A DNA stretch of 64,000 bases. Origin: Lewinella sp. IMCC34183 (GTDB lineage: Bacteria; Bacteroidota; Bacteroidia; Chitinophagales; Saprospiraceae). The notes under the pieces were generated by a model. It was not told where the DNA came from. It searched no databases and saw only the letters and a program-made list of their open reading frames with translations. The position numbers and the translations under genes are program-made. Shown here piece after piece: positions 36,321-45,982 of the stretch (position 1 is its first letter; every line of letters starts with the position of its first letter). Location: the NCBI RefSeq assembly GCF_003390915.1, contig NZ_QMEM01000005.1:248001-312000 (forward strand), written 5' to 3'.

Positions 36321-36928
36321 TTGATATGCGATAGACGATAGGCGATACTCGATTTTTGATTTGGCTACCGCACGGCTCTGCTCGCTTCGCTCGTTTTACC
36401 GTCGGATGTTTGCCAGGGTTAAATCATGTCATCGCGTCGTGCTATCCTATGGGTGTTTGATTTTAGCTTCCATTGTCCGTACGGTGCGGACGAAGATGCT
36501 GATGAGTTGGTTGTTTTCGTCCAGGAGAGCCGCCAGGCGTTCGGCGGCGTACAATTCGGACTGCTGGATGATTTTTAGGTTGATATATGTTTCTCTGAGT
36601 TCCTTCAGGACTATGCTGCACTTGTGCCGAAAGTCCTTATCGGATTCCGCGGCCCGAGCTTCTCCGTACAGCAAGGCGGGTGCGCTGCCCGAGCGGAGAA
36701 TCTGCTTGCCAAAATGCGCGCCGGCGAAACTGCTGGGTAGGTCAGCGGAGAGCCGGACGATCCGGACGGCAAAGTCAATGAGCCGTTGCTCCAGTTGAGC
36801 AGACTGCGATTGCGAGGGCTTCACGTTATGCAGGTACATCAGTTGCCCCCCCAAGACGAGCGCAGCGAGCATCCCCGTGCGGCAGCCAAATCAAGAATCG
36901 AGAATCGAGAATCACATATCGCATATCA
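36321..36928 (-). mobile_element. Inverted-repeat element carrying a four-helix-bundle (IVP) gene, filling the nrdB-nrdA gap
   Basis: The two ends form an imperfect terminal inverted repeat of about 72 bases. Left end (36321-36394): TTGATATGCGATAGACGATA..., then CTCGATTTTTGATTTGGCT, ACCGCACGG and GCTCGCTTCGCTCG. Right end (36928-36857, reverse complement): ATGATATGCGATATGTGATT..., CTCGATTCTTGATTTGGCT, GCCGCACGG and GCTCGCTGCGCTCG. The outer 30 bases are degenerate GATA/ATTCTCG-type short repeats. The single gene inside (36447-36839) belongs to the family of 23S rRNA intervening-sequence proteins. In the nrd transcript the ends would pair to a long hairpin. The nrdB stop codon lies directly at the right border and the nrdA start eight bases beyond the left border. 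No transposase is present. Confidence 0.75.
36447..36839 (-). CDS. Four helix bundle protein (23S rRNA intervening-sequence protein family)
   Basis: A 130-aa protein composed of four amphipathic helices (about 8-32, 40-62, 66-95, 100-127). Motifs typical of the family are LEQRLIDFAVRIVRLSADLP, the IxRSGxSxxxxYGEA-like stretch ILRSGSAPALLYGEARAAES, and FRHKCSIVLKELRETYINL. The fold is shared with the accessory protein Avd of diversity-generating retroelements; free-standing copies are abundant in Bacteroidota, with no proven function. It lies inside the inverted-repeat element, in the same orientation as nrdB and nrdA. ATG 36839 is chosen; one eleven codons upstream would read into the inner repeat. 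Confidence 0.88.
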   Translation of the reverse strand: MYLHNVKPSQSQSAQLEQRLIDFAVRIVRLSADLPSSFAGAHFGKQILRSGSAPALLYGEARAAESDKDFRHKCSIVLKELRETYINLKIIQQSELYAAERLAALLDENNQLISIFVRTVRTMEAKIKHP

Positions 36929-38181: not shown

Positions 38182-38370
38182 TTATCCACAATATGTGGAA
38201 AACACAAATCACCGTATTGACTATCAGTTAGTTGCGATGTTAACTCTATTTATCCACAATGTTAATAAGGTTATTCACATTGTGGAAAACGAGGTGTGTT
38301 TTCCACACTTACCCGGTGGAAAGGCAGCGGGGGCGCGGCCGCGGGTGCCGTGTTATGTGGAAAATCCACA
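38182..38370. other. DnaA-box cluster: candidate oriC, or DnaA-responsive nrd control region
   Basis: Eight DnaA-box-like nonamers lie in 189 bases. Perfect TTATCCACA: 38182-38190 and 38250-38258. One mismatch: TTATTCACA at 38271-38279, TTTTCCACA at 38299-38307, and TGTGGAAAA (reverse strand) at 38194-38202, 38281-38289 and 38356-38364. A two-mismatch box AAATCCACA is at 38362-38370. The sequence is visibly A/T-rich in a G/C-rich window, and an A/T stretch (AATTTTGGTATTTTGG) follows at 38371-38386, fitting an unwinding element. Alternatively the boxes control the nrd operon, since nrdAB of E. coli is DnaA-regulated. Confidence 0.7.
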
Positions 38371-38386
38371 AATTTTGGTATTTTGG

Positions 38387-38929: not shown

Positions 38930-39694
38930 ATGCAAACCAGAACCATCAGTGCTTCCACGATCAAACTCGAAAAGTGGCAAAAACCCAAAAAGATCACCGA
39001 GGACGTCGCGCTGGAGCTTTCCGCTTCGGGGCTTCACTGTGTCTGCTTTGATACGACAAAGGAACCCCAGGTGAGGTCCAAACCGGAAGTAACGACCGAT
39101 CTTCTTTCCACCGTGATTCCCGCCAACCTAAAATGGGTAAAGAATCCCTTCGGCAATACTCCGGAAGCGTACGCGGACCGGGGGTTGGTTCCGGTGCTCA
39201 AGGGAAACAAGAGTATCGCGACGTACTTCGTGGACGGCTTTCTAACCGAGGAGGAAAAGAACGAGGCCAGCCAACAGGTCGACGATCTAGCCGTCGCCGA
39301 CCCCTGTTGCGGCTCGGACGAATACGACGAGAAGGTTACAAGAGGTGGTAATAAACGGGGCGGCGGCAGGACCTGCTCGACCCTATTCTTTCAGTCCGAG
39401 GATTCCGAAGTACCACTCACGTTTCACCTCACGCTGAGTGATGTCTGGAACGGCGGCAAATCGCCGGTACGGGGTGAGCTGGACAATGGTATGGATCACT
39501 TCCTGATCCCGTCGAAGACACCGGGTAACTCGGTCGTCTGGTTGGCCTTCCCCAGATCTAAGGATCCTAAAGCAAACTTTGAAATGCTTGAAAAGTGGAA
39601 AAGAGGCGGACATAAGTTCGCGGCTTTCAGTGGCGCGATGTACACTTCGGATACGCTGAAGATTTCCATTGTGCTAGATGCGGTCCCGGCCTGA
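38930..39694 (+). CDS. Unrecognised cytosolic protein, 254 aa
   Basis: No family is recognised. There is no signal peptide or membrane segment. The protein is Lys-rich at the N-terminus (IKLEKWQKPKKI), has Cys pairs (HCVCF about 37-41; DPCCGS about 125-130), a Gly-rich basic loop (TRGGNKRGGGRTCSTLFF, about 138-155) and a hydrophobic beta-type C-terminal half (ETF-like strands PLTFHLTLSDVW, NSVVWLAFP, KISIVLDAVPA). Codon use is less G/C-rich than in the housekeeping genes around it. It is convergent with the TPR-CHAT lipoprotein, 25 bases apart, and opens the accessory island that also holds an EAD-CHAT protease and a Trypco1 protein. It could be an effector or a protease target there; that is a guess from context. 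Confidence 0.65.
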   Translation: MQTRTISASTIKLEKWQKPKKITEDVALELSASGLHCVCFDTTKEPQVRSKPEVTTDLLSTVIPANLKWVKNPFGNTPEAYADRGLVPVLKGNKSIATYFVDGFLTEEEKNEASQQVDDLAVADPCCGSDEYDEKVTRGGNKRGGGRTCSTLFFQSEDSEVPLTFHLTLSDVWNGGKSPVRGELDNGMDHFLIPSKTPGNSVVWLAFPRSKDPKANFEMLEKWKRGGHKFAAFSGAMYTSDTLKISIVLDAVPA

Positions 39695-39719
39695 CCAGAC
39701 TGACTGACGGCCGGGTTGG

Positions 39720-42458
39720 TCAACCCTTGACCAGCCCGGCCCAGTTTCCCGGAAACGCGTACCAGGACATCTCCTTGCCACTTATCAAATCCCTTTTGGC
39801 CTTGACCAGGGACGAGGAAATACTCTCCCCCCTAAATAAATACTGGTAAAAGCGGGCGTGGACCGTCGCGGAGGCCTTGGCCGGAATCCTCCACAGGGAG
39901 TAGACAACGTGTGGAACCCCGATTTGCTGAAAACTTCTTGCAATACTGAAGTTCCCCTCCCCGATCGCCCCACCGCCGACGCCACCCTCGCAGGCGTTCA
40001 GGAACACCAGATCTGCCTGACATTTGAGCTCGGCTACGGACGCGCCGTTTAAGCTATCCCCTTTCGCAAAGTGAAGGTAATTCTGGTAAGCACTGAAGCG
40101 ATCGCCCTGGGCGTGCACCATGATATTGATGATCTTGAAGTGCCGAATGTCCTGCCTGAAAGTAGCCGAACGGCATTCCGCTCCGTCGAAGATCCGACTT
40201 CCCGCGGGGGCGTTGGAGAGCTTGTCCTCGACTTCGGCAAAATAGCCCGACAACTCCGGGTGAATCCAACTGCCCACCTTTGCCGAAGCGGGATTGAGAA
40301 CGGGACGCTGCCGGTTGAGCAATTCGAGCCGCAAGCTCGGCGCGTACGTTACCTCCAGGTCTCGGGCGAGAAAACCGAGGGACCCCCAGTCGGCCGGATC
40401 AGGGGCAGGATCACGGACCAGTGCATCCACGGGAAGGCTCCTGAGTGGCCCTTCGGGGACCACCAACAACTGGTTCATCCTGGTAAGTGGGCCGGCCACC
40501 GGTCCCAGCACATCGTCAAAAAGCTTGCGGGCCAGCGCCTGGTATTCTGCAACTTTCACCTTCCTGTATCCGCCACCCATCATGGTGAGCAGCGCATCTA
40601 TGTCGGCAGTGAGCGAGTCGACGGAGGGGGTAGCATAGACGATGACCGTATCCGGATCGACATACTGAGCAAGGAGCCGCTCCTCTCCCTCGGCGAATAT
40701 GATTGTCGCTTGCTGCCGCCCGCTTCGTTGCCTTAGTTCGGAAATGCTGGGTGGTTCGTCACGTTTGCCACCGTAAATCCCCGCCCCGGCGTGTTGGGCC
40801 GAAAGATTAAGTTCCCTGTACCGGGTTTGTAACTCTATGAGCTGATTGCGGTCGCTACGGTTGAGTTGCCCCGTGCGCATTTCCAAATCAGCCAGTAAGT
40901 TCATTTGCGTTTGTAAATGAGGCAGGGAATCGAGGCTGGGCGTTAAGTCTGTATCGTCCGAATCCCACAAGCGGTCTTTCAGCAGAAGGAAGGCTTTGGT
41001 TTTCTCCAGCGTTCGGAGCATCTGGTCGGCCCGGCCTGGATCGGGACGGTTCCGGTAAGCCAGCCAGGCCGCTTCATTCGCGTTGATAATAATTTTGCGC
41101 GTGATGTCTTTGAGTTGAGCGATCGCGGTTTCTTCCTCTCCGGTGGTGAAGAGGTCCTCCCACTCTTGCAGAATGTAATCGAAGATCAGCAACGCATCGT
41201 CCAGCGCATCCGTGGCGGCTCCCCTTCTGTACTCCGCCAGTTTTAATCGCCCGTAGTCGGACAATGGATACTTGCAGCTGTAGGAGGGAGAGAGCGTCTT
41301 GAGTAAATCCACCACCGGCCGACCCGCCTCCTCCTTGCTGCAACAGCGGTAGAGCACCAATTGCGCTCGGATACTTCGCTGTACAAGGTCCAGGTCCTTC
41401 TCTTGTAAACCGTACTGGATGAAGGTCCAGTACGTCTCATCCTGAAGGTGAAAATCAAAGGGCGGAATCTGGTCTTGGAATCGCCGATAATAGTAGAGTA
41501 CGCTATCGGGATAAAGACCGGCCTGCCGATGAAAATATCCGCGTAACCGATCGGCAAAGCCGAAATTAGGTGTCGCTGAGGGTTGCAGACCAGTCGCCGG
41601 CAGTTCCGCTTTGGGCGTCGTCAGCCGGGCCAATTCCTGCTCGAATCGAGCCCGGTCACCGAACCTGCAAAGAATGATGATCTTTTCGCGTTGCGCTTCC
41701 CGCCAGCGAATCGAGCCGGCAGCTTGGTACAGGTCTACCGCTTCGGTCATTATCTCGCAGGCCTGATTCAGGAGGTCCTCCCGTTTGAATTCGGGTTGGT
41801 TATCCGCGTATTTCTTTAGGGCTAACCCCTCAGCGACGAGCAAGCGAGCGTACTTATCGGGGTATCGTTGTGGCAGATCGTCGAGGATCGTCCTACCCAA
41901 CCGGGCCGCAGCGGCCTGGGTGGAATACGCATGGTTTTCGATCTGGTGCAGTGCCAGTCCTATCTGGTTCTCTGCCAGGATCGGTTCTGGCGTATCCTCC
42001 GTGATCAGGCTAGCCGCCCACCTCTGGTATATCCCCGTGGAATCTTCGTACGCCTGGTGATCAAAGTGCAGCTCGGCCAGCAGATGCATGCACTGGATGA
42101 CCGTAGTAATGTTTACCGAATCCTGGTGCCGTACCAGCGCGTCAAGCGCTTGCCGGGCCTGTTCCATCGCGGTCGGAAAATCCCCCTCCTGGTAGGTGAT
42201 CCGGGCCCGGAAATACTGAAGCTCGCCATCCAGGTAGCGGCAGCCGCCATCATCCGATCGCTCACGGTAAGCTGCCAAAAGAGCGGCCGCCTCCGCGAAG
42301 CGTTCGTCCACTAAAAGCTGATCGATGCACGGGTTGGCATCCGGGACATCGATCCTGAACGTACCTGGCCCACGGTCCGGCGAGCGCTGCTCCTCACCGG
42401 CGCACCCTGACAAGTGGAGAAGCTGCAACAGGAGTGTCAGGAGGGTGAGTAGACGCAA
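39720..42458 (-). CDS. TPR-CHAT lipoprotein (caspase-like peptidase)
   Basis: A 912-aa protein with a lipoprotein signal (lipobox LSGC, Cys19), a long all-helical TPR region (about 35-560), a coiled-coil-prone segment (about 500-560) and a C-terminal CHAT domain (about 620-912). The caspase-like dyad appears intact: His in IMVHAQGD (about 781) and Cys in LNACEGG (about 822). Downstream segments IGVPHVVYSLWRIPAKAS and FYQYLFRGESIS are typical of CHAT. CHAT peptidases are clan CD proteases; TPR parts sense or bind proteins. The lipoprotein anchor puts this one in the periplasm or outer membrane, not with the cytosolic EAD-CHAT protease. A decayed paralogue lacking the CHAT domain is at 31380-32658. 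Confidence 0.88.
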   Translation of the reverse strand: MRLLTLLTLLLQLLHLSGCAGEEQRSPDRGPGTFRIDVPDANPCIDQLLVDERFAEAAALLAAYRERSDDGGCRYLDGELQYFRARITYQEGDFPTAMEQARQALDALVRHQDSVNITTVIQCMHLLAELHFDHQAYEDSTGIYQRWAASLITEDTPEPILAENQIGLALHQIENHAYSTQAAAARLGRTILDDLPQRYPDKYARLLVAEGLALKKYADNQPEFKREDLLNQACEIMTEAVDLYQAAGSIRWREAQREKIIILCRFGDRARFEQELARLTTPKAELPATGLQPSATPNFGFADRLRGYFHRQAGLYPDSVLYYYRRFQDQIPPFDFHLQDETYWTFIQYGLQEKDLDLVQRSIRAQLVLYRCCSKEEAGRPVVDLLKTLSPSYSCKYPLSDYGRLKLAEYRRGAATDALDDALLIFDYILQEWEDLFTTGEEETAIAQLKDITRKIIINANEAAWLAYRNRPDPGRADQMLRTLEKTKAFLLLKDRLWDSDDTDLTPSLDSLPHLQTQMNLLADLEMRTGQLNRSDRNQLIELQTRYRELNLSAQHAGAGIYGGKRDEPPSISELRQRSGRQQATIIFAEGEERLLAQYVDPDTVIVYATPSVDSLTADIDALLTMMGGGYRKVKVAEYQALARKLFDDVLGPVAGPLTRMNQLLVVPEGPLRSLPVDALVRDPAPDPADWGSLGFLARDLEVTYAPSLRLELLNRQRPVLNPASAKVGSWIHPELSGYFAEVEDKLSNAPAGSRIFDGAECRSATFRQDIRHFKIINIMVHAQGDRFSAYQNYLHFAKGDSLNGASVAELKCQADLVFLNACEGGVGGGAIGEGNFSIARSFQQIGVPHVVYSLWRIPAKASATVHARFYQYLFRGESISSSLVKAKRDLISGKEMSWYAFPGNWAGLVKG

Positions 42459-42784
42459 GGCGATCGGGGTTGAGCGTTAGCTAAGATAGTGGAGTTGCCC
42501 CGGGGATCAACGACTAGGGACGAACACCTGCGGTGAATCGACCAACGCCGCCGCCTCCCACCCCGATAGATGCCGGCACTCCAATCCCTGACCGAGCAGG
42601 GCCAGGCTACCATTATCGCTGGGTCGCAAGGTTACCAATCCGTTCCCCAAGGGATATACACTTCGTAGCCCGGCCCCCCGGTAGTGTACGGGCAGCTATG
42701 ACCAGATGGAAAGCAATGATTTATATTAGAGCCCTTACCGCTGGTTACCGGAATAGCCTGAACACGTAAAGCACTCACACCACT
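42459..42784. other. Divergent intergenic region between two CHAT genes
   Basis: The gap must hold the promoters of the TPR-CHAT lipoprotein (-) and the EAD-CHAT protein (+). An A/T-rich stretch TGATTTATATTAGAG (about 42717-42731) could be part of the plus-strand promoter; no exact TAnnTTTG is seen. No gene is supported. Confidence 0.35.
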
Positions 42785-43657
42785 ATGGAAGACATTCGTA
42801 AACTCATTCAGCAGGGCAAATTGGGAGAAGCCCTGGATGCCATCCTCTCCTGCCTGGAGGGCAAGAACAGCGGCCTCTACAACACCGCTATCCTGCACAA
42901 GGCCTCCTTCAGTAGAATCCAGCGTAGTTCAATGACGGGCACCATTGCGCCCGGGGAAGAAACCATAAACACGAATAGAATAACCCTGGCAGCTCTGTCC
43001 CTCCTGACGGAGATGGAACGGGATGGGATCGTATGTGCAACCAATGGCGGGCAGGACAGGAAGAAAGGCCAGGTCAACGACTTCGAGCGGAAGGGCATCA
43101 AGATTCTGGTAACCGCCGCTGCCCCCAAGGATCTGAGTAGGCTCCGGCTTGACGAGGAAGTCAAGGGAATCCAGGAGGGCATTCAGATCTCGAAAGAGAG
43201 AGACAAGATCAAGCTCGTTCAGCGATGGGCGGTGACCGCCATAAGTTTTCAACAAGCCTTACTTGACGAAGAACCTAACGTCGTCCACTTCAGCGGGCAC
43301 GGCGAGGAGGACGGGATTTACCTGGAAAACGCCCAGGGGAAATACCAACTGGTCCCGGATGAGGCCCTGGAGGAGCTGTTTGAACTATTTGCTCCTTCCA
43401 TTGAGTGCGTCGTACTGAATGCCTGCTATTCCGAACACCAGGCCGGACTGATCAGTAAGCATATTCCGTACGTTATTGGCATGAACGAAGCGATACCCGA
43501 TCAGGCGGCCATCGCCTTCTCGGTGGGTTTTTACCGCGCACTGGGGGCGGGCAGAGATATTCCGTTTGCTTACAAGTCAGGCGTGGTGGCGATTAAGACG
43601 CAGGGTATTGAGGGGGGGATAATTCCTCAGTTGATTACGCAAGACGCTAAGCGATAA
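42785..43657 (+). CDS. EAD11-like domain fused to a CHAT (caspase-like) protease
   Basis: A 290-aa cytosolic protein. Residues about 1-80 form a small helical domain (IRKLIQQGKLGEALDAIL, then LHKASFSRIQRSSMTGTIAP and a closing helix) that matches the pattern of effector-associated domain 11: a G-x-ALD helix pair, an Ile/Arg-rich middle helix, a GxIxxxE turn and an NRITLAALSLL helix. Residues about 100-285 form a CHAT domain: KILVTAAAPKDLSRLRLDEE, catalytic His172 in HFSGHG and Cys214 in NACYS, followed by YVIGMNEAIPDQAAIAFS. EADs are adaptors that tie effectors such as CHAT, trypsin or TIR to NTPase sensors in conflict systems. No NTPase is near, so its EAD partner may lie elsewhere. Less G/C-rich than its neighbours. 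Confidence 0.85.
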   Translation: MEDIRKLIQQGKLGEALDAILSCLEGKNSGLYNTAILHKASFSRIQRSSMTGTIAPGEETINTNRITLAALSLLTEMERDGIVCATNGGQDRKKGQVNDFERKGIKILVTAAAPKDLSRLRLDEEVKGIQEGIQISKERDKIKLVQRWAVTAISFQQALLDEEPNVVHFSGHGEEDGIYLENAQGKYQLVPDEALEELFELFAPSIECVVLNACYSEHQAGLISKHIPYVIGMNEAIPDQAAIAFSVGFYRALGAGRDIPFAYKSGVVAIKTQGIEGGIIPQLITQDAKR

Positions 43658-43840
43658 GATTCATCTTGGATCTATATCATCTCACGATCTTGATTGCGGC
43701 GAGATGCCACCGTAGCATAGGCCTGCTGCCCGCAGCAGTCGACGTAATGAATATCCGGGGCGGGGGCGCAGGTGCAAGGTTCTTTCCGGACACCGGCTGC
43801 CGGGGTGTGAAGCTTTAGGCGAAGGCTTGCTTCACCCTAT

Positions 43841-44173
43841 TTACGATGTCGCCGAGGTTTTGTCCTTCGTCCAACTCAACTTCAGTACCAGATTTCCCTC
43901 CGCGCTGGAGCTGGCAATCACCGCATTGGCTTCCGCCGTAAACTTGATCCCCAATTCCACCGATACCTGATCCGGAGAATCGCTGATCTTCTGCACCTTG
44001 TCTACTATCGCATTGCCAACGGACTCAATGAGCCCCAGGGCCTGTTCGAAACGGCCCTGTACCCGTTCTACGGTATCGCTGCCCCTGTCACCGCGGGTCG
44101 GGTTGCGTGGGGACTTAGGTACCTCTATCTGGATGGGGCCGTAGTCGGATTGGAAGGTGATGGTTTCTGGCAT
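43841..44173 (-). CDS. Trypco1-type protein (CU044_2847 family)
   Basis: A 110-aa cytosolic protein. It fits the trypsin-co-occurring domain 1: an N-terminal strand pair (ITFQSDYGPIQIEVP), a linker, a long helix (RFEQALGLIESVGNAIVDKV), and then the most conserved part PDQVSVELGIKFTAEANAVI followed by a strand EGNLVLKLSW. Trypco domains occur with trypsin-like, CHAT and STAND-type proteins in predicted conflict systems; the molecular role is not known. ATG 44173 is chosen; the frame is open further upstream but without family match. It is convergent with the EAD-CHAT gene, 183 bases apart; the gap contains one CGCAGGTGC motif (43767-43775). Confidence 0.8.
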   Translation of the reverse strand: MPETITFQSDYGPIQIEVPKSPRNPTRGDRGSDTVERVQGRFEQALGLIESVGNAIVDKVQKISDSPDQVSVELGIKFTAEANAVIASSSAEGNLVLKLSWTKDKTSATS

Positions 44174-44842: not shown

Positions 44843-45982
44843 ATGAACCGTATTCTCCCCTCCCTCCTAGCGGTACTCTTCAGCACCTGCGCACGCGCCC
44901 AGTACTACCCCACCCCCACGGAGTGGGATACCCACACCGCCGCCAAAGCCGGCTTCACCGAGGCCGGACTCGACTCCGTAGTCCAGTTCGCGCGCGACCA
45001 CGAGTACTCCGGCGCCCGCGACCTGCGCCTGGCCATCCTCGAAGGCTTCCGCCGGGAGCCCGGCCACACCCTGCGCGGCCCCACCAAGGAACGGGGCGGC
45101 CCCGCCGGCATGATCCTCAAGGACGGCTACCTCGTCACCGCCTGGGGCGATACCGAGCGGGTCGACATGACCTTCAGCGTCACCAAGAGCTACCTCTCCA
45201 CCACGGCCGGGCTGGCCCTCGACGACGGATTGATCCGTTCGGTGCAGGACCCGGTCGACGAATATGTCTGGGACGGCACCTTCTCCGGCGACCACAACTC
45301 CGCGATCACCTGGGAGCACCTGCTGCAGCAGACCTCCGACTGGTCCGGCACCCTCTTCGGCCTCGAAGACTGGACCGACCGCCCCGCCCCCGACGGAACC
45401 TATGACAGCTGGAAGAACCGCGAGCTGCACATACCCGGCACCCACTTCAAGTACAACGACGTGCGCGTCAATATCCTAGCCTACTCCCTGCTGCAGGTCT
45501 GGCGGCGGCCCCTGCCCCGGGTGCTGAAGGAGCGGATCATGGACCCCATCGGTGCCAGTACCACCTGGCGCTGGTACGGCTACGACGACAGCTGGGTCGA
45601 CCTGGATGGCCTGCGGATGCAGTCGGTCAGCGGCGGCGGCCACCACGGCGGCGGTCTTTTCATCAACACCGAGGATCACGCCCGCCTGGGCCTCCTCTTC
45701 GCCCGGAAGGGAAAGTGGAACGACGAACAACTTATCTCCGAGCGTTGGGTCGAAATGGTCCGCACCCCCGCCGCGGCCAACGCCAGCTACGGCTACATGT
45801 GGTGGCTCAACGCCGGCGACCGCGCCTGGGAAGGAGTGCCCGACCACGTCTACTACGCCGCCGGCTTCGGCGGCAACTTCATCGTCATCGATGAGGAGCG
45901 CGACCTGGTCGTCGTCATCCGCTGGCTCGAGCCGGACCGGATCGGCGAATTCATGCGGCGGGTCTACGCGGCCCTCGAGTAA
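44843..45982 (+). CDS. Exported serine hydrolase (class C beta-lactamase/PBP-like)
   Basis: A 379-aa protein with a signal peptide (about 1-20, STCARAQ). Nucleophile motif S-V-T-K at 112-115 (FSVTKSY), Y-N-D in FKYNDVRVN (about 204-206) and a late GGG-type motif HHGGGLF (about 268-274) match the class C/esterase fold. Such Bacteroidota proteins are mostly peptidases or esterases, not resistance enzymes. ATG 44843 is chosen because the signal peptide starts there; a GTG 22 codons upstream does not help. The window also has a partial relative at 1-647. Confidence 0.88.
   Translation: MNRILPSLLAVLFSTCARAQYYPTPTEWDTHTAAKAGFTEAGLDSVVQFARDHEYSGARDLRLAILEGFRREPGHTLRGPTKERGGPAGMILKDGYLVTAWGDTERVDMTFSVTKSYLSTTAGLALDDGLIRSVQDPVDEYVWDGTFSGDHNSAITWEHLLQQTSDWSGTLFGLEDWTDRPAPDGTYDSWKNRELHIPGTHFKYNDVRVNILAYSLLQVWRRPLPRVLKERIMDPIGASTTWRWYGYDDSWVDLDGLRMQSVSGGGHHGGGLFINTEDHARLGLLFARKGKWNDEQLISERWVEMVRTPAAANASYGYMWWLNAGDRAWEGVPDHVYYAAGFGGNFIVIDEERDLVVVIRWLEPDRIGEFMRRVYAALE

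Follow-up and report, generated by a model that had tools for sequence, protein, structure and literature searches.

What might a caspase-like protease do beside a member of a family named for trypsin, when no nucleoside triphosphatase (NTPase) gene accompanies the two? The question is raised by a 64,000-nucleotide stretch of Lewinella sp. IMCC34183 (contig NZ_QMEM01000005.1, positions 248,001 to 312,000; hereafter the window), in which a gene joining the adaptor domain EAD11 to a CHAT peptidase domain, and a second gene of the Trypco1 family, lie in a segment of inserted DNA together with genes for a TPR-CHAT lipoprotein and an orphan protein (Table 1). A preliminary description of this DNA had taken the four genes for one compact island, possibly a conflict system; its open reading frames and domain assignments hold, while the island as a unit does not. 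We propose that the EAD11-CHAT and Trypco1 proteins may act together as protease and cofactor in cell death or phage defence, a reading to which we give about an even chance. It draws on the recognised domains, on a catalytic dyad that is intact, on the fold predicted for the protease, on the insertion and on Trypco1 recurring next to CHAT genes in relatives; the defence or cell-death role is likewise inferred from relatives.

Table 1. Inserted segment and its genes (window coordinates; aa, amino acids)
Feature	Position	Strand	Description
EAD11-CHAT gene	42785..43657	+	290 aa; Pfam EAD11 E=4.1e-15, CHAT E=2.4e-8
Trypco1 gene	43841..44173	-	110 aa; Pfam Trypco1 7e-23, NCBIfam CU044_2847 1e-19
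TPR-CHAT lipoprotein gene	39720..42458	-	912 aa; Pfam CHAT 7.9e-33, TPR_MalT under cut-off
254-aa orphan protein gene	38930..39694	+	no family in Pfam, NCBIfam or PADLOC
Inserted segment	38385..44862		between conserved DNA upstream of nrdB and a conserved serine-hydrolase gene

A CHAT protease with an EAD11 adaptor domain

The EAD11-CHAT protein consists of EAD11 (about residues 2-78), a low-confidence linker (88-100) and a caspase-like CHAT domain (about 105-285), with the dyad His172 and Cys214 at the positions first described and each the same residue in all 38 aligned rows, our own included. Profile match, caspase-like predicted fold and His-Cys dyad are those of the CHAT peptidase family, and the position of EAD11 ahead of CHAT gives an EAD fused to a peptidase, as in EAD-coupled conflict systems. 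The closest solved CHAT domain belongs to a protease of type III-B CRISPR, SAVED-CHAT (PDB 8tl0), but a Pfam scan of the window protein returned EAD11 and CHAT only, so that its N-terminal part is EAD11 instead of SAVED. The PADLOC profile 'chat' also matches at 6e-18 in a PADLOC scan, which is no test of function. Judged from sequence and structure model, the protein is a putative caspase-like protease with a small helical adaptor domain, and proteolysis is its predicted activity.

Trypco1 genes beside CHAT genes in relatives

The neighbouring gene matches the Trypco1 family profile and is the single such match in its own genome. In a first draw of 150 family genomes, eight of the ten other Trypco1 matches lay ahead of a trypsin gene, one ahead of an EAD11-NACHT gene (genome G033) and one without a recognised partner (G018, contig C11), partners which alone would have counted against a Trypco1/CHAT pair. 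A wider draw of 398 genomes changed this picture. Trypco1 is found in 22 of them, with 24 matches, and the partners, assigned by local profiles and Pfam, are trypsin in 16 (eight by local profile only), CHAT in four (our own included), EAD11-NACHT in one, none recognised in two and unclassified in one. Three of the 23 other matches thus adjoin a CHAT gene, and for one of them this is again EAD11-CHAT: in G164, at a contig start where the upstream side is unseen, EAD11-CHAT is followed on the same strand by Trypco1 with 7 nt between, which bears out the link between the two families drawn in the preliminary description. In G270 an LRR-Roc-COR-CHAT gene precedes Trypco1 by 15 nt, with an FGE-sulfatase-like gene behind. 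In G276, of the same genus, Trypco1 overlaps a gene whose CHAT product also carries solute-binding-like and deaminase domains; the CHAT match of this protein is under the Pfam cut-off (22.4 against 24 bits) and reaches 3e-61 with a profile of the window CHAT type.

The Trypco1 proteins of G164 and G270 are sisters in the tree (99/97), and the CHAT domains beside them are 67% identical, while the remaining parts of the two CHAT proteins differ. Trypco1 thus stays with one kind of CHAT domain while the remainder of the CHAT protein changes, which points to the peptidase as partner, and these sequence comparisons suggest that Trypco1 follows the peptidase domain. G033, which also has EAD11-CHAT genes on contigs other than that of its Trypco1/EAD11-NACHT locus, can be fitted to this reading. 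On plasmids, 38 records match Trypco1, and both cyanobacterial ones opened have trypsin-NTPase partners.

Two arrangements deserve separate mention. Around an LRR-Roc-COR-CHAT/Trypco1 locus (L209:836-5571) there are two FGE-sulfatase-like genes, one scanned and the other recognised by eye. At L210:1993-3951, in a same-genus genome, CHAT-type, solute-binding-like and nucleoside-deaminase domains occur in one protein behind Trypco1, and it is possible that sensor, protease and effector are contained in this single protein.

Partners of EAD11-CHAT in relatives

The EAD11-CHAT protein has matches in 67 of the 150 genomes, many to CHAT alone, and EAD11 occurs in 75. Eighteen EAD11-CHAT loci (L060-L077) were taken from the top matches, omitting those with long reading frames in G058 (1054 aa) and G107 (1168 aa); selected neighbours were assigned by Pfam and the remainder classed by eye. 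An Endonuclease_NS gene lies directly upstream in three loci from three genera (L064, L069 and L073; gaps of 13, 14 and 2 nt), where it is likely to form a nuclease-protease pair with EAD11-CHAT. Two loci have an alpha/beta-hydrolase-like neighbour (gaps of 21 and 153 nt), one just above the Pfam cut-offs and one below. In G006, of the same genus, EAD11-CHAT is found with a SIR2-EAD11 gene 222 nt off, followed by nSTAND1-LRR; at L071 it lies by further EAD11 genes, one identified by Pfam and the adjacent one by eye. One locus has a tandem EAD11-CHAT, and in another a further protein gives a CHAT-like match.

Beyond this set, 80 wider CHAT loci (L099-L178) were drawn from genome_contigs as the best 80 among the matches listed, mostly cyanobacterial. 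Their close same-strand neighbours number 55, and the 48 longest, scanned with the seven shortest (70-168 aa) omitted, include AAA_35 (9), iSTAND (5) and WD40 (4).

The genes lie on inserted DNA

The segment is inserted DNA of unlike composition, with low G+C at third codon positions (GC3). In blastn comparisons with seven syntenic sites of the genus, homology breaks off at 38307-38384 and restarts at 44863-44903 in six, those with the hydrolase gene; the seventh is without the serine-hydrolase gene as well. Two of the seven (G006 and G371) have no open reading frame above 125 aa at this site, and in four it is occupied by other large genes (862-1297 aa). The four genes have GC3 values of 0.65-0.69, whereas seven genes around them (nrdA, nrdB, serine hydrolase, esterase, acetyltransferase-like, pyk and TPR) lie at 0.84-0.92. 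The lower G+C first noticed is clear per gene by GC3, but is not a clean step, as in 1-kb windows G+C already falls across the nrdA-nrdB junction.

A conserved four-gene island is rejected, since none of the four genes occurs in any of 19 nrdB flanks fetched from genus relatives (tblastn, 1e-5), a result that covers the flanks only; EAD11-CHAT-like matches exist elsewhere in the G006 and G116 genomes. In seven of these flanks nrdB is trailed by the same downstream genes as in the window, and in the other 12 the downstream genes were also not found, several flanks stopping early where a contig ends (1.8-10.4 kb). Strand changes from each of the four genes to the next (+, -, +, -), so that they form no operon.

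The two remaining genes we read as passengers. The lipoprotein has a C-terminal CHAT domain (His782, Cys823) behind a TPR-like region, with an LSGC lipobox read by eye. The 254-aa protein, indeed without a recognisable family, had been offered as target or effector of the system, for which we find nothing in favour. It has two homologues, 68% and 55% identical; its gene was found in none of the other 397 family genomes, pattern scans of genome_contigs and viral_contigs found no relatives, and a structure model from three sequences (predicted local distance difference test score, pLDDT, 29) is not usable.

Outside the segment, a small gene of the 23S_rRNA_IVP/TIGR02436 four-helix-bundle family (36447-36872, minus strand; GC3 0.70) sits exactly between nrdB and nrdA, framed by 76-nt inverted repeats of 82% complementarity (window 36322-36928). 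Of 20 nrdB-bearing genus genomes, nine, with ours among them, have the gene in this gap, and in the other 11 it was not found at that place. It looks like an intervening-sequence-type element placed in an mRNA operon and not in 23S rRNA.

EAD11 proteins, NTPases and trypsins in the same genome

The preliminary description had supposed that an EAD11-bearing NTPase might be encoded elsewhere. The assembly (98% complete) has five EAD11 profile matches, and the four besides EAD11-CHAT are a protein with a weak carboxypeptidase-regulatory-like match, EAD11 alone (97 aa), a 630-aa protein with a weak methyltransferase match, and a 218-aa protein; both weak matches are under the Pfam cut-offs. None of the four has an NTPase domain at E<=0.1 (Pfam), with about 330 residues of the 630-aa protein unassigned, and the expected arrangement, with the same EAD on a core NTPase in operon or genome, was therefore not found. 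A search of the genome for nSTAND1 gave one match, under cut-off, and did not extend to NACHT or further NTPase families. The window genes themselves include no NTPase and no trypsin, as first described: the list of open reading frames in the insertion holds no NTPase gene (degraded fragments were not sought with profiles), and Pfam finds no trypsin among its four genes, unlike in Trypco1-trypsin pairs. Trypsin_2 has six matches in the genome, every one on contigs other than C53. Four of them (L179, L180, L182 and L184) have, by eye, a hydrophobic start; the reading frames of L181 and L183 were not resolved.

Elsewhere in the genome (L012:1999-8166), downstream of an EAD11-only gene and on its strand come a methyltransferase-looking gene and several hydrolase-looking genes, as judged by eye; two of the hydrolase-looking genes were scanned, with no Pfam match. 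This set could possibly serve as effectors in trans.

Relation to described systems

EADs and Trypco were defined by Kaur et al. (2020, PMC7159879), who in the relevant sections tie Trypco to trypsin, pair caspases with alpha/beta hydrolases, describe one EAD copy as fused to a core component (section 30) and include NucA-peptidase systems (system 3). Neither EAD11 nor CHAT occurs in the main text of that paper, to which the search, without the supplements, extended. As far as these sections go, our locus resembles the EAD-coupled NTP-dependent conflict systems in having a small all-helical adaptor fused to a peptidase and several copies of one EAD per genome, but lacks a detected core NTPase with EAD11; and it resembles the Trypco1-trypsin pairs in having Trypco1 by a peptidase gene, which is CHAT and not trypsin. 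Likeness to the NucA-peptidase system lies in the Endonuclease_NS genes directly before EAD11-CHAT in three of 18 relatives, whereas the four genes of the insertion include no NucA-type endonuclease (Pfam) and the peptidase is again CHAT, not trypsin. Passages of a second paper (PMC10907252) describe Thiohalocapsa DGR 2, a diversity-generating retroelement locus where Trypco2 accompanies a target with CHAT and TIR, and mention that near some retroelements Trypco1 or Trypco2 occurs together with peptidases of the trypsin-like or caspase-like kind. A Trypco-caspase neighbourhood is therefore not wholly new. That locus shares with ours a Trypco gene together with a CHAT protein, but has Trypco2 and a retroelement where ours has Trypco1. 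Among openly licensed PMC papers, supplements excluded, we found neither a Trypco1/EAD11-CHAT pair nor, in the literature search, a tested role for Trypco1.

Proposed function and alternatives

If the EAD11-CHAT and Trypco1 proteins do work together, EAD11 would gather the protease on a platform of other EAD11 proteins, where the CHAT domains could be activated by proximity, as reportedly happens in the SAVED-CHAT filament. Trypco1 would bind and regulate the peptidase domain itself, as it might with trypsin, and the active protease would then cut and so release effectors. As no EAD11-bearing NTPase was found, one of the genome's four remaining EAD11 proteins would have to supply this platform, or else an NTPase linked in some other way. 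Such a pair is unusual, in that the NTPase switch gene usual in such systems was not found with it. A broader proposal, in which Trypco1 serves death-signalling peptidases at large as a cofactor, CHAT and trypsins alike, and EAD11-CHAT/Trypco1 an NTPase-free two-protein death switch triggered via scattered EAD11 proteins, is one we put forward only tentatively and regard as doubtful.

Several observations weigh against a functional pair. The two window genes are convergent, with 183 nt from stop codon to stop codon, so co-expression is not implied. Trypco1 is present at none of the 18 EAD11-CHAT loci and, among the matches listed, at none of the 80 wider CHAT loci (L099 repeats the contig of L062), so its pairing with CHAT is rare; a recognised partner gene of any kind is absent from nine of the 18, which include L063, a stretch with TPR and CHAT genes, and L074, with a PARG-like gene 219 nt off. 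The window Trypco1 is unplaced in the Trypco1 tree, apart from other CHAT-linked members: it is 25% identical to that of G164, and its nearest relatives (37%) are the one ahead of EAD11-NACHT and a trypsin-linked one. G033 is in addition the one case in which the gene next to Trypco1 encodes an NTPase that has no peptidase domain. The genome's other four copies of EAD11, at 13-21% identity to the window EAD11, offer no clear partner.

One alternative is that the two genes are chance neighbours in an accessory hotspot, having arrived separately and doing no joint work, with EAD11-CHAT using EAD11 effectors elsewhere and Trypco1 an orphan. The convergent orientation and the missing Trypco1 at the 18 loci favour it, as do the varied contents of the site, with other large genes or none, and the partnerless Trypco1 of G018. 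Yet for a family as rare as Trypco1, CHAT neighbours in three of 23 other matches would arise by chance with a probability of roughly 2e-5 to 1e-3, window not counted, an estimate for 5-20 CHAT genes randomly placed among 4,500, which leaves the clustering of defence genes out of account. We consider chance neighbourhood somewhat unlikely.

Less probable again, and in our judgement quite improbable, is that the pair is what remains of a larger system whose NTPase or trypsin gene was lost, and that it is inert today or rides on other EAD11 systems. The failure to find an EAD11-bearing NTPase in the genome agrees with such a loss, as do Trypco1 kept directly ahead of EAD11-NACHT in G033 and the company of EAD11-CHAT in G006; but both reading frames are full length, the protease retains its invariant residues, and no NTPase gene, at least as an open reading frame, is left in the insertion. 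A NucA-peptidase-like system with its nuclease in trans, freed by the protease, for which the three upstream Endonuclease_NS genes and the systems of Kaur et al. provide precedent, is very improbable, as the sole Endonuclease_NS match of the genome lies on a different contig, has a hydrophobic N-terminal segment by eye and is not among the EAD11 matches.

For the protease-cofactor pair, the wider interest is twofold. Trypco1 was named for trypsin, and its presence beside CHAT proteases offers a two-protein test of the idea that the peptidase is its partner. If a pair with no recognised NTPase does function as proposed, it would mean that EAD signalling can operate with its components scattered.
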